This document shows positions 51,907-64,000 of a stretch of 64,000 nucleotides of DNA, piece by piece. Source of the DNA: Chishuiella changwenlii. Lineage in GTDB: Bacteria; Bacteroidota; Bacteroidia; Flavobacteriales; Weeksellaceae. The stretch lies in NCBI RefSeq assembly GCF_900142565.1, contig NZ_FRBH01000003.1, positions 124,001 to 188,000 on the forward strand. Direction: 5' to 3'. The translations under genes and the position numbers were made by a program. The notes under the pieces are model-generated. The model worked only from the letters and a program-made list of their open reading frames with translations. It was not told the origin of the DNA and did not search any database. Within the stretch, counting starts at the first letter, position 1, and every line of letters begins with the position of its first letter.

Positions 51907-53132
51907 TAGATGTTTGCTTTTAGTTTATAGTTTTCAATAATTTCATGCACTTGTTTTAAATCATGTGCATTAGGTTTATTTTTATTTTGAATGCTTTTTA
52001 TGAATTGGAAATTTTTGAATGCTTCTTCTTCGGTTATATTCGCTTTGTGAGCAACAACTTCAATAAATAGTTTATTGGTAAGATCTGAGGTTTCTATTCT
52101 AAAATTCTTTCTCAATCTATATAAGAAATAATCAATTTTCTTCTCTACAATATCTTTTATTTCACCACTTTCTTGATAAAGAGAAGAAATTGTTTTGGCA
52201 AATTCTACTGTATGATTTTCTTCTTTCTCAAGAATTGGAATAATTCTTTGCTCTCGCTTACTTCTAAATAATAAGAAAAGAAACAACATTACAAGTAAGA
52301 TTATCCAAGCTGTTTTTAATGCAGGTTGAGACATAATGAAGCGCATCGTAGATGTATTTTTTGCACCAGAATATGTTTTGTTCGGATTATACCACAAAAT
52401 GTTTTTCCCTTTAAATTGTTTTAAAACAGATTTTGCATAGAAGTAACTGTCTTCATTTAAGAGATAATAATTAGAAAAATAAATAGGTTCTGCGTGATAT
52501 AAATAATATCCTTTAGAATCTTCTATACCAATTTTAATGTAATTGGGATAAGTTTTATTCCCATGTGTAATTGTACCAATAACTTCTATATCATCGTCCT
52601 TTAAATCGCTAAAATAATGATGTTCAAATTCTTTCTTCTTTTTGATTTTAAATTTGTCTTTCGTTGCCAATTCAAAATCATTTTTAATGCTAGCTGTTTC
52701 AGTATATAGGATATTATCTTCTTCTTCTTTTACATTAACGGTGTCTATGTTAGATTTCTTAGTATCATCAGAACCAAAATTATCGTAATAATCGGCTAAG
52801 AAAACAACTCCTCCGTTCTTAGCTAAATTACTTAAATGATCTTTTGCAATTGAATCAAAAAGAATGTCAGAACCTATGGCAATCACCACATAATTTTTAG
52901 CATCCTTAGCAGGAATATTTAAATCAGAGAGTTTATCTACTTCTTTTAATTTTCCGCCAGATAAATTACCAACTTCCTTATGCGCAACATACAAACCATA
53001 AGGATCTGTATTTTCTTGTAATAAATTTACATCCCAAGATTTGGGTAAATTCAAAGTTAATTTAGAAAAAGCAAATAAAGTAAGCCCAATTAAAGTAACA
53101 ACACCTAAAACAATTAAAAACTTCTTTTTCAT
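51906..53132 (-). CDS. DUF4350 membrane protein
   Basis: A 408-residue protein with an N-terminal membrane helix (VLGVVTLIGLTLFAFS). It has a periplasmic GATase-like region typical of DUF4350 (TDPYGLYVAHKEVGNLSGGK, GGVVFLADYYDNFGSDD). A second helix at about 272-292 (ALKTAWIILLVMLFLFLLFR) is followed by a C-terminal cytosolic helical domain. Part of the MoxR cluster, overlapping both neighbours by one base. Function unknown. Confidence 0.82.
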   Translation of the reverse strand: MKKKFLIVLGVVTLIGLTLFAFSKLTLNLPKSWDVNLLQENTDPYGLYVAHKEVGNLSGGKLKEVDKLSDLNIPAKDAKNYVVIAIGSDILFDSIAKDHLSNLAKNGGVVFLADYYDNFGSDDTKKSNIDTVNVKEEEDNILYTETASIKNDFELATKDKFKIKKKKEFEHHYFSDLKDDDIEVIGTITHGNKTYPNYIKIGIEDSKGYYLYHAEPIYFSNYYLLNEDSYFYAKSVLKQFKGKNILWYNPNKTYSGAKNTSTMRFIMSQPALKTAWIILLVMLFLFLLFRSKREQRIIPILEKEENHTVEFAKTISSLYQESGEIKDIVEKKIDYFLYRLRKNFRIETSDLTNKLFIEVVAHKANITEEEAFKNFQFIKSIQNKNKPNAHDLKQVHEIIENYKLKANI

Positions 53133-53785
53133 TATCTTAAGTTTTGATTAAATTGATTAAACATTCCCTTAAAAGTCTGATATTTTTCTGCATCAATTTC
53201 AAATTCACCAAACCAAACTTGGTTGAATATTTTTGTGTTTTGACGGAATGTAATTCGATTATTTTCGTCTTCTATCTGATTAATTAATTGTTGATTTGTT
53301 TTCTTCGGGTCCCATTCAATTAATCCTTTTTCGTTTAATATCTGCAAACTTTGGTAATGCAAATAACGAATTGCTAAAGGGAAATTCCCTTCATTCTCAG
53401 CTTTATTAATTAGATGATTTAAATCTATATAAGCTAAATTTTCTTCGATATAATCAAAATCGCTATCGCTATATATTTTCTTTGCATTGGATTTTAGAAA
53501 GCTTCCATTTTTGTAAATACTGTAAGCAATCATAATTAAGAGTAAACCAATAACAGCATAAAAAATAAATGTCCATGGTAAACTAGCGAGAACTTGGAAT
53601 ATAACTTGAAGAATCTTCATAAAGAAACCTGGTTCAACTTCTTTTGGAGGTTTTTCTGTATAATCAAACTTATTAGAAGAATATTTCTCTTTAAACTGAT
53701 TAAATTCTTCTGTTTTAGCTTGAGCGAAAAGCAGACATTGATTCGTAAAAAATAGAAAAGAAAAAAGTAGTCTATGTTGTTTCAT
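53132..53785 (-). CDS. DUF4129-type membrane protein
   Basis: A 217-residue protein with a signal peptide (MKQHRLLFSFLFFTNQCLLFAQ), a membrane helix (~78-98, ASLPWTFIFYAVIGLLLIMI), and a C-terminal cytosolic domain with NFPLAIRYLHYQSLQILNEKGLIEWDPKKTN, the DUF4129 signature. The frame extends to 53863, but the Met at 53785 gives the signal peptide. Overlaps the SpoIIM-like gene by 14 nt. Confidence 0.82.
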   Translation of the reverse strand: MKQHRLLFSFLFFTNQCLLFAQAKTEEFNQFKEKYSSNKFDYTEKPPKEVEPGFFMKILQVIFQVLASLPWTFIFYAVIGLLLIMIAYSIYKNGSFLKSNAKKIYSDSDFDYIEENLAYIDLNHLINKAENEGNFPLAIRYLHYQSLQILNEKGLIEWDPKKTNQQLINQIEDENNRITFRQNTKIFNQVWFGEFEIDAEKYQTFKGMFNQFNQNLR

Positions 53786-54767
53786 TTGTTGTATAAGTTT
53801 GATGAAACGAAAAAGATGATACTCTATTTTTTCTAATTGGATAAATAATATAATACCAAACAATTAAAATTAGAGACAGAAAAATTACAGCTAAACTGAA
53901 GTAAAGATTTACATCGTATAATCGAGTAACAAATCCTTCTATAAATCCAGCAACCATAAACAATGGAACGGTACTTAAAAGAATCATAACTGCTTCTTTT
54001 GCTTTTTTTACAAGCGACTTTCTTCGAGATAAAGTTTTAGGAAATAAAAACCCATTTCCTAACATTAAGCCACAAGCACCAGCAATTATAATAACGGAAA
54101 TTTCTATTGTTCCATGCATCCAAATTGCTGTCATTGCCTTTCCTAAAACACCTTCTTTAAAGAAAATATAATGAAAAGCACCTAACATAACTCCATTAGA
54201 AAATAAGATGTAACCAGAACCAACACTAAATAATAAGCCCATTGCAAATGCATAAAAGGCAACTTTTATATTGTTGATTGTAATGGCTAACGTGGAACCT
54301 GTTTGGCTTCCTGATTTATAAATTGCAGCAGGATCTCCCTTTTTTATGTTAACTAAAGTTTGTTCTACATAATCATTTCCCATTATAAGACGCGTAAAAT
54401 CTGCATCGAAATGAGAAGATAAAATTCCAATTAGTACAGCAAAACTAAAAATTAGAAATGCATATAAAAACATTCTATGATTTTGATAAACAGTATTGGG
54501 AACATCATTCTTAAAAAATTCAATTAATTGATTAGTTGAAGAACGTTGATCTTTATAAATTGATTGATGAGCAAACAAAGCAAGCTCATTTAAATAGTCT
54601 TTTGTTTTACTTTTTGAATAATATGTTTGAGCAAATGCCAAATCATTCGTAATTTCGATATAGTTTTTGGCCAATGTATCAGGATGAACATTAATTTTAT
54701 TTTTCAAATTATATTCAATCTCCGACCATTTCGCCTTATTTTTATCAATAAAATGCGCTTCTCTCAT
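53772..54767 (-). CDS. Stage II sporulation protein M-like membrane protein
   Basis: A 331-residue protein of the SpoIIM (DUF95) family with about six membrane helices (FLYAFLIFSFAVLIGILSSHF, VAFYAFAMGLLFSVGSGYIL and others). The conserved block MTAIWMHGTIEISVIIIAGACGLMLGNG, with its HGxxE motif, is characteristic. The organism does not sporulate by gene content here; in Bacteroidota the gene belongs to the MoxR/RDD cluster. First gene of the minus-strand operon, divergent from RDD across 29 bp. Confidence 0.88.
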   Translation of the reverse strand: MREAHFIDKNKAKWSEIEYNLKNKINVHPDTLAKNYIEITNDLAFAQTYYSKSKTKDYLNELALFAHQSIYKDQRSSTNQLIEFFKNDVPNTVYQNHRMFLYAFLIFSFAVLIGILSSHFDADFTRLIMGNDYVEQTLVNIKKGDPAAIYKSGSQTGSTLAITINNIKVAFYAFAMGLLFSVGSGYILFSNGVMLGAFHYIFFKEGVLGKAMTAIWMHGTIEISVIIIAGACGLMLGNGFLFPKTLSRRKSLVKKAKEAVMILLSTVPLFMVAGFIEGFVTRLYDVNLYFSLAVIFLSLILIVWYYIIYPIRKNRVSSFSFHQTYTTNETT

Positions 54768-54796
54768 TGTAGAGTAGTTGTTAGTAGTCCAAATAT

Positions 54797-55522
54797 ATGA
54801 ATAAACTTTTAGTCAATACACCACAAAATGTTCAAATTGCATACAATATTGCTCCTTTTGGAAAACGTATGCTTGCTTTTATTATAGATTTAATTATAAG
54901 AGTAATTCTAATCTTTGCGCTTTTATATTTCTCGTATGGTGCAATTAATAAACAAGACGGTTGGTTTGTAATGGGGATTTACAGTTTGATTGGTTTTATA
55001 TTTTTACTTTATCCTTTGATTTTAGAAATAGTAATGAAAGGGCAAACCATTGGAAAGTGGTTGTTTAAAATTAGAGTAATTAGAATGGATGGTAACAGAG
55101 CAAATAATTTTGATTACTTTTTACGTTGGGTAATTGGAATTGTAGAGCTATATATGTTTTCTGGTTTAATAGCTTTAGTTGTAGCTATTGCAAGTAAAAA
55201 TCATCAACGTTTAGGTGATATTGTAGCCAATACATGTTTAATAGACTTAAAGCCAAGATTAGATTTATCTCAGACTATTTTTTCAGAATTATCAGAAACT
55301 TATACCATTCGTTTTCCAGAAGTTTATAGACTTTCGGATAGAGATATAAACATTGTAAAAGAGAATTTTACGATTGCATTAGATCGTAATAATTATGATA
55401 TTTTACAAAAATTAACTAGAAAATTAGAAGAAATTATGGATGTGAAAAGTGATGGCTTAGGTAATATTGATTTTATACAAATTATTATTCAAGACCATTA
55501 TCATTACCATAAAGATAAATAA
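54797..55522 (+). CDS. RDD-family membrane protein
   Basis: A 241-residue protein with an RDD domain: GKRMLAFIIDLIIRVILIFA (Arg-x-x-Ala...Asp) with three to four membrane helices up to about residue 145 (TIGKWLFKIRVIRMDG between them). A cytosolic C-terminal helical region follows. It is divergent from the SpoIIM-like gene by 29 bp, the standard organisation of this cluster. Role unknown; transport or membrane-protein partner function is proposed for RDD proteins. Confidence 0.88.
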   Translation: MNKLLVNTPQNVQIAYNIAPFGKRMLAFIIDLIIRVILIFALLYFSYGAINKQDGWFVMGIYSLIGFIFLLYPLILEIVMKGQTIGKWLFKIRVIRMDGNRANNFDYFLRWVIGIVELYMFSGLIALVVAIASKNHQRLGDIVANTCLIDLKPRLDLSQTIFSELSETYTIRFPEVYRLSDRDINIVKENFTIALDRNNYDILQKLTRKLEEIMDVKSDGLGNIDFIQIIIQDHYHYHKDK

Positions 55523-55523
55523 T

Positions 55524-55556
55524 AAAAAAACCGATTTCAAAGAAATCGGTTTTTTT
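55524..55556. terminator. Terminator after the RDD gene
   Basis: AAAAAAACCGATTTC (55524-55538) and GAAATCGGTTTTTTT (55542-55556), 3-nt loop, directly after the stop codon. Confidence 0.9.
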
Positions 55557-55646
55557 ATTATTTGAAGTTATCTAATTTTTATTCATACGAAATGGCATCC
55601 TGAGCTAAATCGAAATGTCGTTTCATAAACACGTTATAATAGAAAA

Positions 55647-55772
55647 TGTCAGTTCGAGTGAAATTCGTTTAGAATTTTGTATCGAGAACTTAGACAGTTT
55701 ATTAATTTTCTTATCTAAGTTCTCGATAAAATTTTTCTTCATTTTCATTTCAAAAAATCACTCGAACTGACA
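55647..55772. repeat. Nested palindromic element, family B, copy 1
   Basis: A 126-bp element with outer inverted repeats TGTCAGTTCGAGTGA (55647-55661) and TCACTCGAACTGACA (55758-55772) and an inner inverted repeat TATCGAGAACTTAGA (55680-55694) / TCTAAGTTCTCGATA (55714-55728). It has no ORF. Near-identical copy 2 lies 112 bp downstream, and both are followed by GAAAATTGTG. Confidence 0.8.
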
Positions 55773-55884
55773 GAAAATTGTGTTGAATTTTCAACATAAC
55801 ACGAGGTGTTTTTAAACTATTTATTAGTCTAGTTTACCAGTCTAATATATCATCCTGATTTCTATGACACCTTATGCTAGAAAC

Positions 55885-56009
55885 TGTCAGTTCGAGTGAA
55901 ATTCGTTTAGAATTTTGTATCGAGAACTTAGACAGTTTATTAATTTTCTTGTCTAAGTTCTCGATACAATTTTTTTTCATTTCATTTCAAAAAATCACTC
56001 GAACTGACA
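55885..56009. repeat. Nested palindromic element, family B, copy 2
   Basis: A 125-bp copy with the same 15-nt outer arms (55885-55899, 55995-56009). The inner stem is longer: TATCGAGAACTTAGAC (55918-55933) with GTCTAAGTTCTCGATA (55951-55966). The whole gap 55557-56058 between convergent genes consists of these two copies plus decayed fragments (CATCCTGAGC at about 55597, ATCATCCTGATTTC at about 55850). Confidence 0.8.
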
Positions 56010-56058
56010 GAAAATTGTGCTACATAATAATATTATCATTAAATATTAAACAACTTTA

Positions 56059-56559
56059 CTATTCTGTAACAGTTATTTTTAATGTCTTACTTCCTTTAAT
56101 TTCGTTTATAGAAACTTGATTGTAATTTATTTTATATACACCTGGTTTCACAATTTCGTAACCTTTTTTCAACGAGAATTTTACACTTTTGCTTTCTCCT
56201 GGTTGTAAAGTATGGTAAGAACTTTCTGGTGGTGGCATCATACGTTTTGCCATTGCACCAATGTAATTCATTTCATTTCCATTGCTATCTGTTACATCTA
56301 GAAATTTACTCATCATTCCTTCAAAAGGAGTGTGGTACTGTGTAAAACGAATTATTTCCTTAGTAGGATTTGTTACAGTAAACTCTAAAGAAATAGTATC
56401 ATTCAAAGAATAACTTTCTTGTGTAGCTTTTAAACTAGATACTAATTTACTTGCAGCAGTTTTCATTTCTGTTTGTTGACTATTGTTTGTTTTATTTGTT
56501 GAACAAGCTGTTGCTCCAAGCAAAAGCATTATTCCAATTGCAAAACTTATCTTTTTCAT
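56059..56559 (-). CDS. Lipoprotein resembling the N-terminal domain of M35 deuterolysin-type proteases
   Basis: A 166-residue lipoprotein (lipobox LGATAC, Cys19). The mature part is a single beta-sandwich: ISLEFTVTNPTKEIIRFTQY, then HTPFEGMMSKFLDV, NYIGAMAKRMMPPPESSYHT and LQPGESKSVKFSLKKGYEIV. This order (NTPFEG, DxF.V, YIGxxxKR, LxPGES, GYDL) is that of the N-domain preceding the metalloprotease in secreted M35 peptidases. No HExxH catalytic domain follows. It could be a stand-alone inhibitor-like or binding domain. Confidence 0.65.
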   Translation of the reverse strand: MKKISFAIGIMLLLGATACSTNKTNNSQQTEMKTAASKLVSSLKATQESYSLNDTISLEFTVTNPTKEIIRFTQYHTPFEGMMSKFLDVTDSNGNEMNYIGAMAKRMMPPPESSYHTLQPGESKSVKFSLKKGYEIVKPGVYKINYNQVSINEIKGSKTLKITVTE

Positions 56560-56623
56560 ATTGATGTTTTATAAAGTAAAAATAAGCTTAATTAGGGATA
56601 CGTTTATCACTATTAACGCATAT

Positions 56624-57016
56624 TTAACGAAGTACTAACGTAATATTTTCATGTGATTTAAAAACATCAAGCAATATTTCAAAGTAAGTTTCTCCTGTTC
56701 CTTCTTCTAAATTTTTTAATTTTTCTTGGAACAATTTAACATTAAAGTACTCAGGCTGATTTATTTTATTCAAATAATAAGCTCTTGTAGCATCAATTCC
56801 TAAAACAGTTCTACTTTTCTCTGAATCTAACCAAATAAAATGTGGAGAATCGATGCCTATTAACTCACCATAACCTCCATAAAGTGCATCATCTAAAGCA
56901 TCAAGACTTTCACCTAATTGCCAATCTTCGTTTTTCATTAATAAACGATTTATTTCATTGTAAAAATCTGAAATGTTGCTGATAGAGCTTCCGTTGATAA
57001 TAAATGATTCATTCAT
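56624..57016 (-). CDS. Barstar-family protein (ribonuclease inhibitor fold)
   Basis: A 130-residue cytosolic protein with barstar features: FIINGSSISNISDFYNEINRLL at the N-terminus, GESLDALDDALYGGYGELIG (barstar: NLDALxDxLxG) and FIWLDSEKSRTVLG. A C-terminal extension (FKSHENITLVLR) ends as barstars do. Barstars inhibit barnase-type RNases. No barnase-like toxin gene was found in the window, so it is an orphan immunity-like gene or has another role. Confidence 0.85.
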   Translation of the reverse strand: MNESFIINGSSISNISDFYNEINRLLMKNEDWQLGESLDALDDALYGGYGELIGIDSPHFIWLDSEKSRTVLGIDATRAYYLNKINQPEYFNVKLFQEKLKNLEEGTGETYFEILLDVFKSHENITLVLR

Positions 57017-57136
57017 TAGAGATATTTTATTTTAAAAGTAGAAAAACTTTCTAAAATGAAAAAGACTTATGTTTTTAATTTTGATGAATGTTTAAGCAGT
57101 TTTAACATTGTATCTTTGTAGAAAATAAATTATCCG

Positions 57137-57511
57137 ATGAATTGTCCTTGTTGTTCACAAAAGAAATACAAAGATTGTTGTGAACCTTATCATTTAAATA
57201 AAGCTTTACCATTATTTCCAGAAGAATTAATGCGTTCTCGTTATACTGCATTCGCTCTTCATTTGGTTGATTATTTAGTAGAAACAACACACGTTAGCCA
57301 ACGCCCTTATCATTCTAAAAAAGAAATAGAGCATTGGGCAAAGTCAAATAAATGGTTAAAATTGGATGTTGTAAAAGCATGGGATAATTTTGTTCATTTT
57401 AAAGCATTTTACCAAGATTCTTTGGGCGATGTGTATGAGCATGAAGAATTATCAACCTTTAAAAAAGAAGGAGAGAAGTGGTTTTATGTTGATGGTAAAT
57501 TCGATTTTTAA
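57137..57511 (+). CDS. YchJ-like protein with SEC-C zinc motif
   Basis: A 124-residue cytosolic protein beginning MNCPCCSQKKYKDCCEPYH, a SEC-C-type zinc-binding motif. The YchJ/UPF0225 domain follows (EELMRSRYTAFALHLVDYLV, FVHFKAFYQD, EHEELSTFKKEGEKWFYVDG), an NTF2-like fold. Compared with E. coli YchJ it lacks a second C-terminal SEC-C motif. Function unknown. Confidence 0.88.
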   Translation: MNCPCCSQKKYKDCCEPYHLNKALPLFPEELMRSRYTAFALHLVDYLVETTHVSQRPYHSKKEIEHWAKSNKWLKLDVVKAWDNFVHFKAFYQDSLGDVYEHEELSTFKKEGEKWFYVDGKFDF

Positions 57512-57518
57512 AAATAAA

Positions 57519-57538
57519 AGCCTCTGAAAATAGAGGCT
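57519..57538. terminator. Bidirectional terminator between ychJ-like and PEGA genes
   Basis: AGCCTCT (57519-57525) pairs with AGAGGCT (57532-57538), flanked by A and T runs, between convergent genes. Confidence 0.7.
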
Positions 57539-57545
57539 AAAAATT

Positions 57546-58007
57546 TTAATTTGATAACTGTCCTACTTTTTCCCAAGATGGATCAATTTCTAATTTTACA
57601 GCAATAAAAACATCATCTCCTTTTGTTTTGAAAGCCGTACCTTCATGTAATTCAGCTTGAATTTGATCTGGTGTTAACTTATACAAAGCTCCAGTAACTG
57701 GATCTACAATTAAACCGATGACACCTCCAAAAAGAATATTTCCAATATACCAAGCATTAAATTTTCTTGATATTTTAGTTTCGTAAGTTTTATAGCCATC
57801 TAACTTAATCATTACATCATAATTCTTTTTACGTTCTAACTTTTTTTCTATTGGAGTAGTTCCAATTTCAATTTCGTTAATGTAAACAGTCGCTTGTGAT
57901 GGTGTACTTTTAAAATTTACAGTTTGCTTTGAGCCAGATACAATTGTAGCGCAACTTGTAAAGGCTAATAATGATCCAGTGAATAGGATCATAAATGATT
58001 TTTTCAT
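57546..58007 (-). CDS. PEGA-domain lipoprotein
   Basis: A 153-residue lipoprotein (lipobox FTSC, Cys19, then ATIVSGSKQ). Residues ~28-85 are a PEGA-like beta-sandwich (VNFKSTPSQATVYINEIEIGTTP, KLDGYKTYETKI). A hydrophobic segment follows, with GNILFGGVIGLIVDPVTGALYKLTP (Gly-zipper-like), as in other bacterial CATIVSGS lipoproteins. Envelope location; function unknown. Followed upstream (same strand) by another small lipoprotein gene. Confidence 0.8.
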   Translation of the reverse strand: MKKSFMILFTGSLLAFTSCATIVSGSKQTVNFKSTPSQATVYINEIEIGTTPIEKKLERKKNYDVMIKLDGYKTYETKISRKFNAWYIGNILFGGVIGLIVDPVTGALYKLTPDQIQAELHEGTAFKTKGDDVFIAVKLEIDPSWEKVGQLSN

Positions 58008-58030
58008 ATAGGTAGTTTTAGTAAAATATT

Positions 58031-58414
58031 CTAATCAAGTGTAAGTCTATACTGCTGAAGAGATTTTATATCTCCATCATAGTAATAGTAATCAATATCC
58101 ATTCTAGTACAAGTGCTCCATAGATCAGCTCCTTTAGAGTTAACTACTTTAATAATATTTGCACCATTATCACGAGCAATTTTTCTAAGCTTTTCTAAAT
58201 TAGAATTATAACTACAATCTGTAGAAAAACCTGAATCTTTTACTTGTGAAGATCCAATTTTAACAGATCCAGCTGGAACTTTATGTTTTTCAGCTAAAAA
58301 AGCAAATGATTGTTCTCTAGAAATAGATGGTTTTATTTCAGAAAAATTAGTTTTAATTGATGCTCCACAACTTACTAATGAAGCAATAATGATAGTATAG
58401 AATAATATTTTCAT
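58031..58414 (-). CDS. Small lipoprotein, unknown
   Basis: A 127-residue lipoprotein (lipobox LVSC, Cys16). The mature sequence contains two further cysteines (STDCSYNSN, WSTCTRMD) likely to form a disulfide, and a helix KLRKIARDNGANIIKVV as in RcsF-like or DUF4156-like alpha/beta envelope proteins. The tail carries a run of tyrosines (DYYYYDG). 23 nt upstream of the PEGA lipoprotein on the same strand; probably co-transcribed. Confidence 0.65.
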   Translation of the reverse strand: MKILFYTIIIASLVSCGASIKTNFSEIKPSISREQSFAFLAEKHKVPAGSVKIGSSQVKDSGFSTDCSYNSNLEKLRKIARDNGANIIKVVNSKGADLWSTCTRMDIDYYYYDGDIKSLQQYRLTLD

Positions 58415-58526
58415 TTAAAAATTTGAGCAAAAATAACTTGTTTTTAATAAAACAAAGCAATATAAACGTTTAGTTTTTAAATAGATATATTGATAGAGTA
58501 GTTGATTGTTGTAAAAATAAAATAAT

Positions 58527-58561
58527 AAAAAACGCTCAATTCAATGAATTGAGCGTTTTTT
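58527..58561. terminator. Terminator after the murU-like gene
   Basis: AAAAAACGCTCAATTCA (58527-58543) pairs with TGAATTGAGCGTTTTTT (58545-58561), a 17-bp stem around a single-base turn, directly at the minus-strand stop. Confidence 0.9.
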
Positions 58562-58562
58562 A

Positions 58563-59276
58563 TTATTTAAAAATTTCTTCTGCTTCTAAAACACTAGATG
58601 GTCGACCCACATCAATTAAGACTCCTCCCGAATGATCAAAGCCTAAAATAGTATCAACTTTCATTAATTCCATGTAAACTTTCATAATAGAAAATTTTCC
58701 TTGGAAATGAATAGATTCAAACAATTTTGGTTGTATAAGATGAATACCAGAAAAAGCCAATTCTTTTAAATTCTCGGTATTATCTGTTGCTAAAATCTCT
58801 TCATTAGAAGATAAATTTCTCCAACCTTTTAATTGATTTTTTTCATCAAACAACAATTTACGAGAAGAGTTTCTATCAGAAACCGCCAACGAAACAATTG
58901 CATTTTCTTCTTGATGAGCTTTAATGAAATGAGATAAATTTAAATCTGTCAAAATATCAACATTCATTACTAAAAAATCATCATCAAAAAAGTGTTGAGC
59001 ATTTACCAATCCACCTCCAGTTTCAAGAACTTCTGGGCGTTCATCAGAAATATGAATGGTGATTCCGAAATTATTATTCTCTTGTAAGAAATCAATAATT
59101 TGATCTGCAAAATGGAAAACATTTACAACAATTTCTGTAATACCATAAGATTTTAAATACTCAATATTACGTTGTAACAAAGGTTTTCCATTAACAGGAG
59201 CTAACGCTTTGGGATGATTTTCTGTAAATGGTTTTAATCTTGTGCCTAAACCGGCAGCAAAAAGCATTGCTTTCAT
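58563..59276 (-). CDS. murU: Nucleotidyltransferase, MurNAc-1-phosphate uridylyltransferase-like
   Basis: A 237-residue NTP-transferase-fold enzyme: MKAMLFAAGLGTRLKPFTENHPKALAPV (nucleotide-binding GxGTRLxP and KAL/KPM-like PKAL), then VMNVDILTDLNL and GVLIDVGRPSSVLEAEEI. This matches MurU of the Pseudomonas-type peptidoglycan recycling route, which converts MurNAc-1-P to UDP-MurNAc. The role is supported by the AmgK-like kinase gene two positions upstream in the same operon. Starts 3 nt after the RapZ-like stop. Confidence 0.85.
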   Translation of the reverse strand: MKAMLFAAGLGTRLKPFTENHPKALAPVNGKPLLQRNIEYLKSYGITEIVVNVFHFADQIIDFLQENNNFGITIHISDERPEVLETGGGLVNAQHFFDDDFLVMNVDILTDLNLSHFIKAHQEENAIVSLAVSDRNSSRKLLFDEKNQLKGWRNLSSNEEILATDNTENLKELAFSGIHLIQPKLFESIHFQGKFSIMKVYMELMKVDTILGFDHSGGVLIDVGRPSSVLEAEEIFK

Positions 59277-59279
59277 TAA

Positions 59280-59702
59280 TTAGTATGCTTCGTTAATCCA
59301 ATTTTTTTCTTCTTGTACAACATGCTGTACGGTAACTTGTACTTCTGGAAATTTATTTTCTATGTATTTTGCAGTTGTATCAGCAGAATAAACAGAACGA
59401 TGTTGTCCTCCAGTACATCCAAAATTAATTTCTAAATTCTCGAATCCACGTTGAATATAATCTTCGATAGAAATATCAATTACTTGAAAAACACCTTCTA
59501 AAAAAAGAGCAATTTTAGTTTCCGTTTCTAGGTATTTAATAACTGCTTCGTCTCTACCAGTTTGTGTTTTAAATTCTTCTTTTCGACCAGGATTTAAAAT
59601 TCCTCTACAATCAAATACAAATCCTCCTCCGTTTCCTGTAGGATCTGTTGGAATTCCTTTTTTATATGAAAAACTGCGTACGTTAATGTTTAATTTAGCC
59701 AT
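59280..59702 (-). CDS. Stand-alone RapZ C-terminal domain protein
   Basis: A 140-residue protein equal to the C-terminal half of RapZ. It has INVRSFSYKKGIPTDPTGNG, FVFDCRGILNPGR, and the diagnostic NFGCTGGQHRSVYSADTTAKYI. In E. coli the RapZ C-terminal domain binds glucosamine-6-phosphate and interacts with RNase E and QseE/GlmY partners (established). The N-terminal Walker-A kinase domain is absent, and the gene begins exactly at the domain boundary. It lies between AmgK-like (8-nt overlap) and MurU-like (3-nt gap) genes. Confidence 0.9.
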   Translation of the reverse strand: MAKLNINVRSFSYKKGIPTDPTGNGGGFVFDCRGILNPGRKEEFKTQTGRDEAVIKYLETETKIALFLEGVFQVIDISIEDYIQRGFENLEINFGCTGGQHRSVYSADTTAKYIENKFPEVQVTVQHVVQEEKNWINEAY

Positions 59703-60711
59703 TTATTTTATTATTTATTTTTTCTATAGTTTCTGGTTGAATTAAAACTGTTATAATGTGTTTTAATTCTGGGTAATTTTGTAAAATAGGATAATCTACG
59801 ATTGCTTTTAAATTCTCTAAACCAAAAGAAATACTCTCAATAAAATGTGGCTTTCTTTCAATAATTCCTCGCAAACCATAAGCTCCTAATACTTGTATTA
59901 GTCTTGCGACAACACAATATTCATAAGATACTTTACAATCTATTGGAACAATTGTATTGTCTAATTCCTGCAATTCTTGAAGGTAAAAATTATACAAATC
60001 ATTTTTAAATTCAGTTGATAAATTAGCTTTTGCTTGCCAAATTAATGAAACCAAATCGTAGAAAATTGGACCATATAAACCTCCTTGATAATCAATGAAA
60101 TAAGGTTCATTGTTTTTAACCATGATATTTCTTGACTGGAAATCTCTAAAAACAAAACCTTTTGGTGAAAGTTGATCGAATTGTGAGGCAAATAAATCAA
60201 AATCTTTAATTAATTTACCTTGATTAAAATCGATTCCTATAACATTAAGAAAGTAAAATTTAAACTGAAATAAATCTCTTAGAATTAATGTTTTATCTAA
60301 TTTTGGATAAGAAAATGCTTGATTGAAGTCAATTTCTTTTCCTGCTTCTATTTGCGCTTTTACTAATAATTTAATGCTGTCGAAATAATATTTCTTTGCT
60401 TCTTCAAAATCATTTTCTAAAACATTCATTAATGTTTTATCACCTAAATCTGTTTGTGTATATAAAGTGAAATCGTCGCTTATTTGCCAAATTTTCGGAA
60501 TGTTTGGTAAAATTTTATTCAAGATATCTGTATAATAAAAGAATGTTTTATTCTCTTCTATATTACTACTTTCAGCAAGAATATAAGAGTGATTTTGATC
60601 AAAAAATCGATAGTATTTTCGAGAAGAACCACCACCAGATAATAATTGAACTGAATCTGCCACTTCTTGAGAATAATGTTGTGTTAAAAACGAAATAATT
60701 TTCGAATCCAT
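59695..60711 (-). CDS. amgK: AmgK-like amino-sugar kinase (aminoglycoside phosphotransferase fold)
   Basis: A 338-residue kinase of the APH/choline-kinase fold. It has LSGGGSSRKYYRFF (nucleotide loop, as in AmgK), KGFVFRDFQSRNIMVKNNEP (Brenner motif HxDxxxxN with FRDFQ as in AmgK) and FIDYQGGLYGPIFYDLVSLI (DxQ metal site typical of AmgK). AmgK phosphorylates MurNAc/GlcNAc at C1. The frame extends to 60729; the Met at 60711 is preferred. First gene of the three-gene operon; stop overlaps the RapZ-like start by 8 nt. Confidence 0.88.
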   Translation of the reverse strand: MDSKIISFLTQHYSQEVADSVQLLSGGGSSRKYYRFFDQNHSYILAESSNIEENKTFFYYTDILNKILPNIPKIWQISDDFTLYTQTDLGDKTLMNVLENDFEEAKKYYFDSIKLLVKAQIEAGKEIDFNQAFSYPKLDKTLILRDLFQFKFYFLNVIGIDFNQGKLIKDFDLFASQFDQLSPKGFVFRDFQSRNIMVKNNEPYFIDYQGGLYGPIFYDLVSLIWQAKANLSTEFKNDLYNFYLQELQELDNTIVPIDCKVSYEYCVVARLIQVLGAYGLRGIIERKPHFIESISFGLENLKAIVDYPILQNYPELKHIITVLIQPETIEKINNKING

Positions 60712-60822
60712 TTTTACAATTTTCTGCAATTTACATCGAATCTTTGAGTTGATTTCTCTTTAAAAAGATTTTTTGTAACCTTTTTCTATCTTTTGCATCT
60801 ATAAACTATAAAAGATACTAAT

Positions 60823-61290
60823 ATGAAGAAAATAGCAGTTTTAATTATCGCAATATTTACACTACAATCGTGTATTTCTGTTCGTGTAAATGCAGACATA
60901 GATCCAAATGCTCATTATACAAAAGCAGAAAATCCGAATATAAAAGTACAAGGAACTTATTTTGTTGAAGGTTTTTCTGATGAGAAATGGTCTAATTCTA
61001 ACAATTCTAATTCTACAAAAGCAAAATTTGAAAAATCTACGGGTACAACTTATGTAAAGTTAGATGTAAAAAAGAAAACGTCGGTAGAGTTTCGTTCTGT
61101 TATTAAACTAAAAGGAGATTTGAATTTTAAGATTATAGATAAAAATGAAAACGTTTTGTTTGAACGTAATTTAAACGATTCTAAGGAAGAGGTTTTTACA
61201 GTTGATTTTTCAAAATCAGGTGAATATCAAATTATTTGGAATCAGCAAGCTGCAACAGGAAGTTATTTCCTAGAGTGGAAAGAGAATTAA
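60823..61290 (+). CDS. Lipoprotein of unknown function
   Basis: A 155-residue lipoprotein (lipobox LQSC, Cys17, followed by ISVRVNADIDPNAHYTKAE). The mature beta-rich domain contains a Ser/Asn stretch (WSNSNNSNSTKAK) and a C-terminal strand pattern (GEYQIIWNQQAATGSYFLEW). No family recognised. Divergent from amgK; own terminator downstream. Confidence 0.7.
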   Translation: MKKIAVLIIAIFTLQSCISVRVNADIDPNAHYTKAENPNIKVQGTYFVEGFSDEKWSNSNNSNSTKAKFEKSTGTTYVKLDVKKKTSVEFRSVIKLKGDLNFKIIDKNENVLFERNLNDSKEEVFTVDFSKSGEYQIIWNQQAATGSYFLEWKEN

Positions 61291-61325
61291 TAGTAGGGAT
61301 TATTTGTTTAATCAAAAATGGTTAG

Positions 61326-61357
61326 AGGATTGAAATTTTTTTTTCAATCCTTTTTTT
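61326..61357 (+). terminator. Terminator after the lipoprotein gene
   Basis: AGGATTGAAA (61326-61335) pairs with TTTCAATCCT (61342-61351), followed by seven T. Confidence 0.85.
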
Positions 61358-61466
61358 GTTTATAATATGTTTTGAAGTAAACAAGACATATATCATTATA
61401 GAAAATTATTTTATTTAAAAATTATTGTCAAATATTTGCAATAATAATTTAGACTAAATAAAAATA

Positions 61467-63194
61467 ATGAAAAGAATATTTATCCCTTTCGTTTTAATAA
61501 CGGTATCGCTTAATGCTCAGATTTTTCAAGAAGTGCAAACTGATATTTCAAATTATGGTTATGCTTCTTTAAGTGTTGGAGATTTTGATGCAGACGGTTT
61601 CCAAGATTTATTAATTTGTGGAGACGATTTTTTAAGCAATACGCAATGTGATATATATAAAAACAATAACGGTGTTTTTCAATTTTATCAAGGATTGCAA
61701 CAAGGTACATATCTTGGAGATTTACGATTTGTAAACCTTAGAAATGATAATACGTTGGATATTGTAATGACAGGTCAGAATCGTGAGAATATTACGGCTT
61801 ATAAAACACATCAATTTAAATTTAATGGCTCTAATTATGAATTAGATAATACGAGTAACATTGGAAAAATTTACGCTAGTTTAGGTGAAGGAGATTTAGA
61901 TCATGATGGTAAGTTAGATTTATTTCTTAACGGTGCAGATAACGCTGCACACGGAGAACAAGGACGAACTGTTTTAGATTTATATAAAAACGAAGGTGCT
62001 AAATTAACTTCTTCAGAGTTAGTTGGAGGAAGCCAAAATGGAGATTTTGTAATTGCTGATTTTAATAATGATGGATTACTTGATGTTGCTATTTTTGGTT
62101 TAAATGGAGAAAATGAAACCGAAACAGATTACGGTGCATTTTTCAAAGTTTACACAAATCAAAATGGAAATTTAGTACAAAGTCAAGAATTATATGGAAT
62201 GTTATATGGTTCTATGGTTTCTGCCGATTTTAATGCAGATGGTTTTCAGGACCTTGTTGTAACAGGTATCGGAAAAAGTGTAGAAGATGCTCCAACAACT
62301 TTATATTTAGAAAATGATGGTGCAGGAAATTTTATTACACATGACTTGTTACAAGGTGTGCAGAATTTTAGCTCTGTAAAATCAATTGATAAAGGAGATA
62401 TAAATAACGATGGTTATTACGATTTTGTAATGGTAGGAGAGGATGAAACAGGTTCACCATCATCAAAAGTATTTTTATACGATCCATCTACTGATACATT
62501 TAATTTGGATGAAAACTCTGGTTTAGCAAATTATGTAATATCTGCTAGTTTACGATTATTCGATTATGATAACGATAACAACTTAGATTTAATTTTAGTT
62601 AGTGCGGATGAAAATTATGATCCAAAAACTTCATTGTACAGAAACTTAACAACTGTAAAAAATGAAGCTCCAAATGCGCCAACAATTTTTGATACTCAAG
62701 TTTCTGACGATAAAATAACTTTTTCTTGGGACGGAGCATCGGACGATAAAACACCAAATAATGCACTACAATATGAACTATCTGTAGGTTCTGCTTCAGG
62801 AAAAGCAGATATCGCAAAATACGTTGTAACAACCAAAAATTGGTTTTTAAATAAAGAAAATATGCCATCAACTTTTTACTGGTCAGTAAAAGCAATAGAC
62901 GCTTCAGCTGTACACTCTTTAAGTTCGGAAGAACAAGTTTATTCTAGCTTATCTACGAATGATGTTACAAAGAAAAATATTTCTATTTATCCAAATCCAA
63001 CAAGTGATGTGGTAAATATTAAAGCCAACCAATCGGTTGTAAAAGTTAATGTTTACAATTTAGCTGGACAGCAAGTATTCTCGAGAGCAGATGCATCTCA
63101 AATTAATATTCAATCATTAAATAAAGGAGTTTATTTAGTAGAAGTGATATTAAAAGACGGACAAAAAATCCAAACTAAATTAATTAAGAAATAG
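61467..63194 (+). CDS. FG-GAP/VCBS-repeat protein secreted by T9SS
   Basis: A 575-residue secreted protein. Signal peptide (FIPFVLITVSLNAQ). Residues ~30-400 are seven or so FG-GAP/VCBS-type blades with calcium-like loops DFDADGFQDLLI, DLDHDGKLDLFL, DFNNDGLLDVAI, DFNADGFQDLVV, DINNDGYYDFVM and DYDNDNNLDLIL. A fibronectin-III-like domain (~400-490) follows, then a type A T9SS sorting domain (ISIYPNPTSDVVNIKANQ ... VYLVEVILKDGQKIQTKLIKK). Likely a surface adhesin or glycan-binding beta-propeller. Confidence 0.9.
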   Translation: MKRIFIPFVLITVSLNAQIFQEVQTDISNYGYASLSVGDFDADGFQDLLICGDDFLSNTQCDIYKNNNGVFQFYQGLQQGTYLGDLRFVNLRNDNTLDIVMTGQNRENITAYKTHQFKFNGSNYELDNTSNIGKIYASLGEGDLDHDGKLDLFLNGADNAAHGEQGRTVLDLYKNEGAKLTSSELVGGSQNGDFVIADFNNDGLLDVAIFGLNGENETETDYGAFFKVYTNQNGNLVQSQELYGMLYGSMVSADFNADGFQDLVVTGIGKSVEDAPTTLYLENDGAGNFITHDLLQGVQNFSSVKSIDKGDINNDGYYDFVMVGEDETGSPSSKVFLYDPSTDTFNLDENSGLANYVISASLRLFDYDNDNNLDLILVSADENYDPKTSLYRNLTTVKNEAPNAPTIFDTQVSDDKITFSWDGASDDKTPNNALQYELSVGSASGKADIAKYVVTTKNWFLNKENMPSTFYWSVKAIDASAVHSLSSEEQVYSSLSTNDVTKKNISIYPNPTSDVVNIKANQSVVKVNVYNLAGQQVFSRADASQINIQSLNKGVYLVEVILKDGQKIQTKLIKK

Positions 63195-63232
63195 AATCTC
63201 AACTCATTTACTTTAATACTTACTTTAATTAA

Positions 63233-63270
63233 CACAGAAATTGTAGAATTGCAGTTTCTGTGTTTTTTTA
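63233..63270 (+). terminator. Terminator after the FG-GAP gene
   Basis: ACACAGAAA (63233-63241) pairs with TTTCTGTGT (63256-63264), followed by a T run. Confidence 0.8.
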
Positions 63271-63313
63271 TTTGCTTAATAATTGTTTAATTTTGCTCTA
63301 GAATTTATATTTT

Positions 63314-64000
63314 ATGAAACAATTACAATTGATGCTAGGAAGTGCTATCCTTTTAGGATTTACAGCATGTCAAACACCTAAAGTAGCGACAGAGCAGCAA
63401 CAAACAAAAAATAATTATCATAGTTTACAGGTTGATGGAAAAATTTATGCAGCATTTTACCAACAACGTGCAGCAGAATATCAAGCATTAAGTCAACAAG
63501 CTTACAATATTGCCAAGTTACGTTTAGATGAGGCGATAGCTAAAAAAGGAGCAAAACCTTTGGCTATTGTAACAGATATAGATGAAACATTTTTAGATAA
63601 TTCTTATTATGCTGTAGAAATGGCCAAACAAGGAAAAACTTGGTCACAAGATTCTTGGGCAAATTGGACATCTAAAGGAGTTGCAACACCATTAGCTGGT
63701 TCGTTAGATTTCTTTAACTATGCAGCAAGTAAAGGTGTGCAAATTTTTTATATTACAAATCGTTACGAAGTAGAAAGACCAGGGACATTAGCTAATTTAG
63801 AGAAGTATAAATATCCTGTGCAAAGCGCAAATAACTTAATTTTAAGAAGTAAAGAAAGTAGTAAAGAAGCTCGTCGCCAAAACGTCGCGAAAGATTACGA
63901 TATCGTTTTACTTTTAGGAGATAGTTTAACGGATTTTTCTTCTTTATTTGACAATCATAAATCAGAAAAGGAGAGAGCAGATGCTGTTGAAACTTTGAAA
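63314..64000 (+). CDS. HAD-type acid phosphatase / 5'-nucleotidase, lipoprotein e(P4) family (partial)
   Basis: An open frame from ATG 63314 runs off the right edge; 229 codons are visible. Lipobox LLGFTAC (Cys19). The HAD class C acid-phosphatase motif is AIVTDIDETFLDNSYY (DxD nucleophile region, about residues 85-100), followed by TWSQDSWANWTSKGVATPLAG and VQIFYITNRYEVERPGTLANL (motif II) and YDIVLLLGDSLTDFSSLFD (motif IV). e(P4) proteins dephosphorylate NMN and nucleotides at the outer membrane. About 35-40 residues are missing at the C-terminus. Confidence 0.92.
   Translation, partial: MKQLQLMLGSAILLGFTACQTPKVATEQQQTKNNYHSLQVDGKIYAAFYQQRAAEYQALSQQAYNIAKLRLDEAIAKKGAKPLAIVTDIDETFLDNSYYAVEMAKQGKTWSQDSWANWTSKGVATPLAGSLDFFNYAASKGVQIFYITNRYEVERPGTLANLEKYKYPVQSANNLILRSKESSKEARRQNVAKDYDIVLLLGDSLTDFSSLFDNHKSEKERADAVETLK

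Follow-up and report, generated by a model that had tools for sequence, protein, structure and literature searches.

MurNAc salvage of the Pseudomonas type relies on AmgK, MurU and MupP. AmgK acts on MurNAc and not on MurNAc-6P, and the HAD enzyme MupP supplies the MurNAc (PMC5371407, in excerpt). The proteobacterial MupP was discovered through its co-occurrence with amgK and the absence of murQ, and E. coli without murQ accumulates MurNAc-6P (same excerpt). Among Bacteroidota, Tannerella forsythia likewise salvages MurNAc with AmgK and MurU (PMC7670621, in excerpt), and its AmgK and MurU genes have served to label MurNAc in E. coli (PMC13041923, in excerpt). The available portions of these two accounts mention no RapZ domain.

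The second described system is the RapZ/YvcJ/HpaP family. E. coli RapZ touches GlmZ and RNase E chiefly via its C-terminal domain, the substitutions C247A and C247S abolish its activity, for which the authors suggest a catalytic -SH, and GlcN6P appears chemically transformed in the crystal (PMC9841335, in excerpt). The isolated C-terminal domain dimerises alone and binds GlcN6P with a KD of 10 nM, and this binding frees GlmY (PMC7073468, in excerpt). Its loop C247-T-G-G-x-H-R253 holds sulfate or malonate (PMC5737377, in excerpt). YvcJ is stated to possess phosphatase activity (PMC7525490, in excerpt), and a title in the reference list of PMC7073468 attributes ATPase and phosphatase activity to HpaP. 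In our literature search, which covers few subscription journals, no paper brings RapZ and AmgK together; the available part of PMC10216114, on RapZ, MurNAc and phosphatase, holds nothing on RapZ-C as a MurNAc phosphatase.

The locus described here shares its two core genes with the Pseudomonas-type system and, like it, depends on unphosphorylated MurNAc. However, the Pseudomonas phosphatase MupP is a separate HAD protein, whereas the candidate in Bacteroidota is a RapZ C-terminal domain (RapZ-C) that is fused to the kinase.

A three-gene unit of AmgK, RapZ-C and MurU

We analysed a window of 64,000 nucleotides, by which we mean the whole stretch of Chishuiella changwenlii DNA. As the preliminary description had proposed, a free RapZ-C lies between AmgK and MurU, and all three genes are found at the positions given in Table 1. 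On the minus strand the gene order is AmgK, RapZ-C, MurU, with a spacing of 3 bases between RapZ-C and MurU. The reading frame of the AmgK-like protein extends, still open, to a TTG at 60729. The three genes are one unit, closed by a terminator-like hairpin.

Table 1. Features of the AmgK, RapZ-C and MurU unit in window coordinates.
Feature	Position	Strand	Details
AmgK-like anomeric MurNAc/GlcNAc kinase	59695-60711	minus	338 aa from ATG
Overlap of AmgK stop and RapZ-C start	59695-59702	minus	8 bases; seam at which the fusion is split
Free RapZ C-terminal domain (RapZ-C)	59280-59702	minus	140 aa; anion loop C96-T-G-G-Q-H-R102
MurU-like MurNAc-1-phosphate uridylyltransferase	58563-59276	minus	237 aa
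Terminator-like hairpin, strong, 3' of MurU	58523-58565	minus	three overlapping predictions against 0.8 expected

The assignment of the 140-aa protein to RapZ-C is firm (PF22740, E 3.9e-32, 111.4 bits against a cut-off of 27), and in the PDB the protein matches the C-terminal domain of E. coli RapZ. Conversely, the protein scores 97.7 bits with the NCBIfam equivalog for full-length RapZ, under its cut-off of 244. The RapZ N-terminal P-loop domain PF03668 has no match across the entire genome from which the window derives, and RapZ-C is present there in a single copy, with no second one found.

The two flanking enzymes are named by homology. The putative AmgK matches the APH family PF01636 (E 9e-10, 39.1 bits against a cut-off of 23.2) and the NCBIfam AmgK family NF045759 (E 8e-20, 71 bits, under the equivalog cut-off of 550), and it scores 403 bits against an alignment built from the AmgK parts of its relatives; its name draws on this homology together with fusion and linkage to MurU. 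The putative MurU matches NTP_transferase PF00483 (E 6e-17) and, as its top-scoring NCBIfam family, MurU NF045761 (E 1.6e-41, 142.6 bits, under the equivalog cut-off of 250). It also matches the MurU structure 8hhd in the PDB (E 1.5e-18).

Fusion and splitting of AmgK and RapZ-C in Bacteroidota

To place the window among its relatives we used a draw of 296 Bacteroidota genomes. What the window encodes as a free RapZ-C is one part of an AmgK-RapZ-C(-MurU) enzyme that has come apart, and this enzyme is spread over many lineages of the phylum (36 of the 296 genomes). Thirty of these places, including the window, were examined as loci, and AmgK and RapZ-C form one frame in 26 of the 30, mostly of about 480-515 residues. 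The two are consecutive genes in the window and in locus L014, and RapZ-C stands alone in L027 and L030. The other six genomes carry free frames of 139-155 residues; in all four of those read, AmgK and RapZ-C are consecutive and MurU comes next. Two RapZ-C genes (L124:7435-7836 and L125:7583-7993) are distant from AmgK and MurU, and AmgK is elsewhere in both genomes.

A second set comprised 80 loci from named genomes, with titles nearly all from Bacteroidota and two from Ignavibacteria. AmgK and RapZ-C are fused in 71 of the 80. Two of these 71 (L101 and L119, from rumen and colon Bacteroidaceae, 751 and 760 residues) are triple fusions with MurU, in which RapZ-C is placed between kinase and uridylyltransferase. 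The split form is found in five Chryseobacterium-type loci and in L068, and a further three (L053 and L056 from Epilithonimonas, and L090) have RapZ-C and MurU without AmgK inside about 8 kb upstream. In 52 of the 80 loci MurU either follows immediately or is part of the fusion, several of the stretches ending early. Beyond the three genes, no neighbour is generally conserved across the 80 loci. Seven Chryseobacterium/Epilithonimonas loci (within L053-L064) share two genes 3' of MurU, which in L053 encode roughly 236 and 157 residues.

RapZ-C is present throughout the genus of the window (14 of 14 genomes), and in the window as well as the 13 other loci read from this genus AmgK, RapZ-C and MurU are separate genes in this order. 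On a tree of 105 joined AmgK and RapZ-C rows (midpoint root, support as SH-aLRT only), the split state needs three changes, and the split clade of the window comprises 12 rows with a support of 97. Because the split state nests inside fused rows, the free RapZ-C of the window is a secondary split of an AmgK-RapZ-C fusion. The preliminary description had seen in the free domain a pointer to the ancestral role of RapZ-C; we rejected the idea that the free state is ancestral, since on this midpoint-rooted, SH-aLRT-supported tree the split arises three times inside fused relatives. On a tree of RapZ-C only (128 columns) all Bacteroidota copies form one clade against nine outgroup rows, with a support of 99; the two unlinked free copies are not placeable on it.

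Parabacteroides distasonis, which belongs to the same family as Tannerella forsythia, has an AmgK-RapZ-C fusion of 476 residues (WP_005858754.1, L138:1981-3411). Residues 1-330 score as AmgK and the final part alone as RapZ, and the next gene is recorded as a nucleotidyltransferase. The fusion is recorded as 'RNase adapter RapZ', a public label that hides its kinase part.

Fold and conserved residues of RapZ-C

The AlphaFold model of RapZ-C (pLDDT 93.7) has as its PDB match the E. coli RapZ C-terminal domain, both by Foldseek (E 1.4e-9, TM 0.83) and by VIA-align (Z 19.7, rmsd 1.4 Å, 126 residues aligned). The two proteins share this fold, the C-T-G-G-x-H-R loop, R184, D182, K170 and H276 (E. 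coli numbering). Unlike the RapZ/YvcJ/HpaP proteins, however, the RapZ-C of the window has no N-terminal P-loop domain and is of a kind fused or linked to AmgK instead. It also lacks the basic C-terminal RNA-binding tail of E. coli RapZ, with K270, K281 and K283 not kept, and has glutamine in place of K251. For the AmgK-RapZ-C fusion, structure prediction gives a pLDDT of 93.0 and a pTM of 0.73.

We compared 17 RapZ-C sequences from Gammaproteobacteria, Alphaproteobacteria, Bacillota, Fusobacteriota, Actinomycetota and Bacteroidota. Across all 17 sequences, which cover five phyla, eight residues do not vary (C247, G249, G250, H252, R253, R184, D182 and H276). The ligand pocket of RapZ, formed by H190, T248, G249, H252 and R253 together with C247, is retained at five of its six positions. 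The exception is H190, which is glycine in all eight Bacteroidota rows, and the same eight rows carry a GNGGG-type insert ahead of the FVFD strand. This glycine and the insert together could make space for the lactyl group of MurNAc.

The C-x5-R anion loop, C96 to R102 in the window, is invariant. In the AlphaFold model it joins strand 89-96 to helix 102-117, so that the loop cysteine is the end of the strand and the loop arginine the start of the helix. Cysteine phosphatases are marked by the motif C-x-x-G-x-x-R-[ST]. The best natural fold matches other than RapZ are phosphofructokinases (VIA, Z 6.9), while the dual-specificity phosphatase DUSP10 falls within background (VIA, Z 4.8, rmsd 3.6, 88 aligned). 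No PTP-like fold stands above background in the VIA list for RapZ-C, an absent match being no proof, and phosphofructokinase resembles the overall modelled fold more closely than PTPs do. The fold of RapZ-C is that of RapZ rather than a HAD fold, and the domain is not a member of the MupP family.

Co-occurrence of RapZ-C with AnmK, MurQ and AmgK

AnmK forms MurNAc-6P, and the etherase MurQ is an exit of MurNAc-6P. Across the 296 genomes, AnmK was found in 207, MurQ in 211 (threshold E 1e-40) and AmgK in 100, 37 of them strong. A strong AmgK is present in all 36 RapZ-C genomes, including both with an unlinked RapZ-C. Every one of the 207 AnmK genomes has MurQ or RapZ-C, and none is without both. 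Where AnmK occurs without AmgK, MurQ is present in 182 of 182 genomes; where AnmK and AmgK occur together, RapZ-C is present in 25 of 25, and 13 of these lack MurQ. Thus RapZ-C is found in 13/13 genomes with AnmK and without MurQ, the window's genome included, versus 12/194 with both AnmK and MurQ. The 13 genomes represent six family codes, with seven in the window's own, in counts that are uncorrected for phylogeny. Fisher's test gives p values of 4e-14 and 2e-15 for the contrasts among AnmK, MurQ, AmgK and RapZ-C, uncorrected for kinship. RapZ-C also coexists with MurQ in 16 genomes.

Conversely, neither AnmK nor MurQ occurs in any of the 64 genomes with AmgK and without RapZ-C. Of these, 63 are from one family with a distant AmgK, and this contrast rests mainly on clade. 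The sole genome of this group with the same kind of AmgK as the RapZ-C genomes is G009, in which AmgK and MurU are adjacent.

The genome of the window has AnmK (232 bits). MurQ was not found in it, the only MurQ-like matches scoring 35 and 19 bits in frames of 617 and 339 residues; we take the 617-residue frame for the SIS domain of GlmS. We used TIGR01449 as a proxy for MupP-like HADs. It gave a weak match in 44 of 45 genomes and none over the cut-off, with a best score in the window's genome of 53 bits against a cut-off of 180. The profile NF045760 was dropped as a MupP profile, NF045760 being YtpR.

Candidate sources of MurNAc-6P beyond AnmK

Eleven of the RapZ-C genomes were scored AnmK-negative, and all eleven have a BadF-type kinase over the family cut-off. 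Because AnmK or a BadF-type kinase occurs in all 36, none of the RapZ-C genomes is without a candidate enzyme for forming MurNAc-6P. A partial AnmK match in G216 (E 1.2e-10) just misses the 1e-10 cut, and this genome was scored AnmK-negative. The kinase is strong in ten of the eleven (85-227 bits). One was read per genome of these ten (292-329 aa), and each adjoins an MFS-type transporter, or in one case is near it, some also a GH3 hydrolase. Six of the transporters (five from the ten genomes and one from G132) and one GH3 hydrolase were Pfam-tested, the others being named by sequence likeness. The one BadF-type kinase tested against the PDB is closest to the MurNAc/GlcNAc kinase 8zo3 (E 6e-37). 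In the eleventh genome, G230, the kinase is weak and adjacent to MurQ.

We read the loci with a BadF-type kinase, MFS transporter and GH3 hydrolase as recycling operons of a MurK-AmpG-NagZ-like kind, the transporter and hydrolase neighbours presumably being AmpG and NagZ. Such loci of BadF-type MurNAc/GlcNAc kinase and MFS transporter (L159-L167, L169 and L170) are mostly in genomes without AnmK. Among the 15 AnmK-positive RapZ-C genomes in the BadF search, some hold such a kinase too, G132 strongly, and the two sources are not mutually exclusive. On contig C5 of the window's own genome (L171:2050-2961) a 303-residue kinase is close to the solved putative MurNAc/GlcNAc kinases 8ow9 and 8oqk. 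Given this kinase and AnmK, MurNAc-6P may have two routes of formation in this genome, from which MurQ is absent.

In the three genomes tested that have AmgK without RapZ-C, no BadF-type kinase passes the cut-off (G009 and G010 none, G015 20 bits). Four loci of family code f17 were read, and AmgK and MurU are adjacent in all four. Two of these (L151 and L157) belong to another type of AmgK-MurU cluster, one that lacks RapZ-C; Pfam tests place the exo-muramidase NamZ beside AmgK-MurU in both and identify an SSF transporter in L151. With NamZ beside AmgK-MurU, MurNAc may arrive unphosphorylated in the f17 loci.

A candidate phosphatase and its alternatives

The unit, the fusions and the co-occurrence bear out the earlier proposal that RapZ-C belongs to the AmgK-MurU salvage route. 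Since AmgK takes MurNAc and not MurNAc-6P, the 6-phosphate needs to be removed in RapZ-C genomes. We therefore hypothesized that AmgK, RapZ-C and MurU act as one functional unit that would convert recycled MurNAc-6P to UDP-MurNAc. AnmK or a MurK-like kinase would yield MurNAc-6P; RapZ-C would then strip the 6-phosphate, with the invariant cysteine of the C-x5-R loop as the nucleophile and the loop amides and arginine holding the phosphate. AmgK would phosphorylate the freed MurNAc at C1 and MurU would produce UDP-MurNAc. RapZ-C would thus fill the role of the Pseudomonas MupP, to which it is unrelated, with phosphatase and kinase being one polypeptide in most RapZ-C-bearing Bacteroidota and split in the window's family.

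We give an even chance to RapZ-C being a cysteine-dependent amino-sugar-6-phosphate phosphatase that replaces MupP, inferring both the catalysis and MurNAc-6P as the substrate. The fusion to AmgK, the co-occurrence, the need for an exit of MurNAc-6P and the catalytic signature support this reading, as do the published findings on the E. coli cysteine and GlcN6P and on phosphatase activity in YvcJ and HpaP, and they make a good circumstantial case for RapZ-C as the MurNAc-6P phosphatase in the AmgK-MurU route of Bacteroidota. Several observations weaken it. Glycine replaces the H190 on which E. coli RapZ depends in all aligned Bacteroidota sequences, the best natural fold matches outside RapZ are phosphofructokinases, and RapZ-C also occurs alongside MurQ. 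Moreover, the key contrast draws on six family lineages and one AmgK genome of the same clade (G009).

Alternatively, RapZ-C may be a built-in sensor, as the preliminary description had suggested for amino sugars, that binds MurNAc-6P, GlcNAc-6P or GlcN6P and turns AmgK, and through AmgK also MurU, on or off with no chemistry of its own. The nanomolar affinity of the isolated E. coli domain for GlcN6P (PMC7073468, in excerpt) suits a sensor better than a phosphatase, fusion to an enzyme fits regulation in cis, and a sensor of MurNAc-6P would be expected to show the identical pattern with AnmK and MurK-like kinases. We nevertheless consider a sensor unlikely, though it keeps a real chance. It would leave MurNAc-6P with no known exit in the 13 genomes with AnmK and without MurQ, and would not require the invariant cysteine, yet the E. 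coli C247S protein is inactive (PMC9841335, in excerpt). If it responded to GlcN6P only, the absence of RapZ-C from AmgK genomes without a MurNAc-6P source would be unexplained. The sensing proposal thus keeps some probability, yet an enzyme that works on the sugar 6-phosphate accounts better for the genome-wide pattern and for the invariant C-x5-R loop.

HAD proteins are common, and the near-universal weak matches to TIGR01449 admit a MupP-like HAD as the phosphatase. RapZ-C would then be a scaffold or dimerisation module that joins AmgK and MurU and passes on MurNAc-1P, in line with the dimerisation of the E. coli domain alone (PMC7073468, in excerpt) and with its physical position in the triple fusions. 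A scaffold would not, however, be expected to track a MurNAc-6P-forming kinase or to preserve a complete anion pocket, and AmgK is out of reach in the three loci with RapZ-C beside MurU and away from RapZ-C in two genomes; we regard this arrangement as improbable. Most improbable by far is that the free RapZ-C has kept its RNA binding and directs RNase E/G, the salvage genes simply lying next to it. Such a role would accord with the contacts of E. coli RapZ to GlmZ and RNase E, made mostly via the C-terminal domain (PMC9841335, in excerpt), but the RNA-binding tail and K251 are missing, the N-terminal domain of RapZ was not found in the window's genome, and RapZ-C is fused to a kinase in most relatives. 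An Rfam scan of window positions 53000-64000 has no match to GlmY or GlmZ, as the preliminary description had anticipated, while the RNase link that it raised found no support.

A broader form of the phosphatase reading, in our estimate somewhat short of an even chance, is that RapZ-C founds a new family of cysteine-dependent sugar-6-phosphate phosphatases with a fold of its own. In Bacteroidota it would be the MurNAc-6P phosphatase welded to AmgK, while in E. coli and Bacillus the enzyme would have given rise to roles in sensing and with RNA. If these roles grew out of an enzyme, the thiol requirement of E. coli RapZ would be explained. The phosphatase reading, if true, would fill the phosphatase gap in the MurNAc salvage of Bacteroidota, a kind of route that the MurNAc auxotroph Tannerella forsythia reportedly uses. 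It offers a direct test of the role of the conserved RapZ cysteine, a question raised by the E. coli structural work. Part of the 'RNase adapter RapZ' database entries in gut Bacteroides and Parabacteroides would be a cell-wall recycling kinase.

RapZ-C on viral contigs and plasmids

On viral contigs there is one weak relative. Among 80 plasmid records matched by RapZ-C, 29 are from Streptomyces or Nocardiopsis, some perhaps with full-length proteins. Streptomyces plasmids carry free RapZ-C of 127-160 residues (L144:3001-3483 and L145:3013-3396), likewise named 'RNase adapter RapZ', and the loop is largely retained in the actinobacterial plasmid copies.
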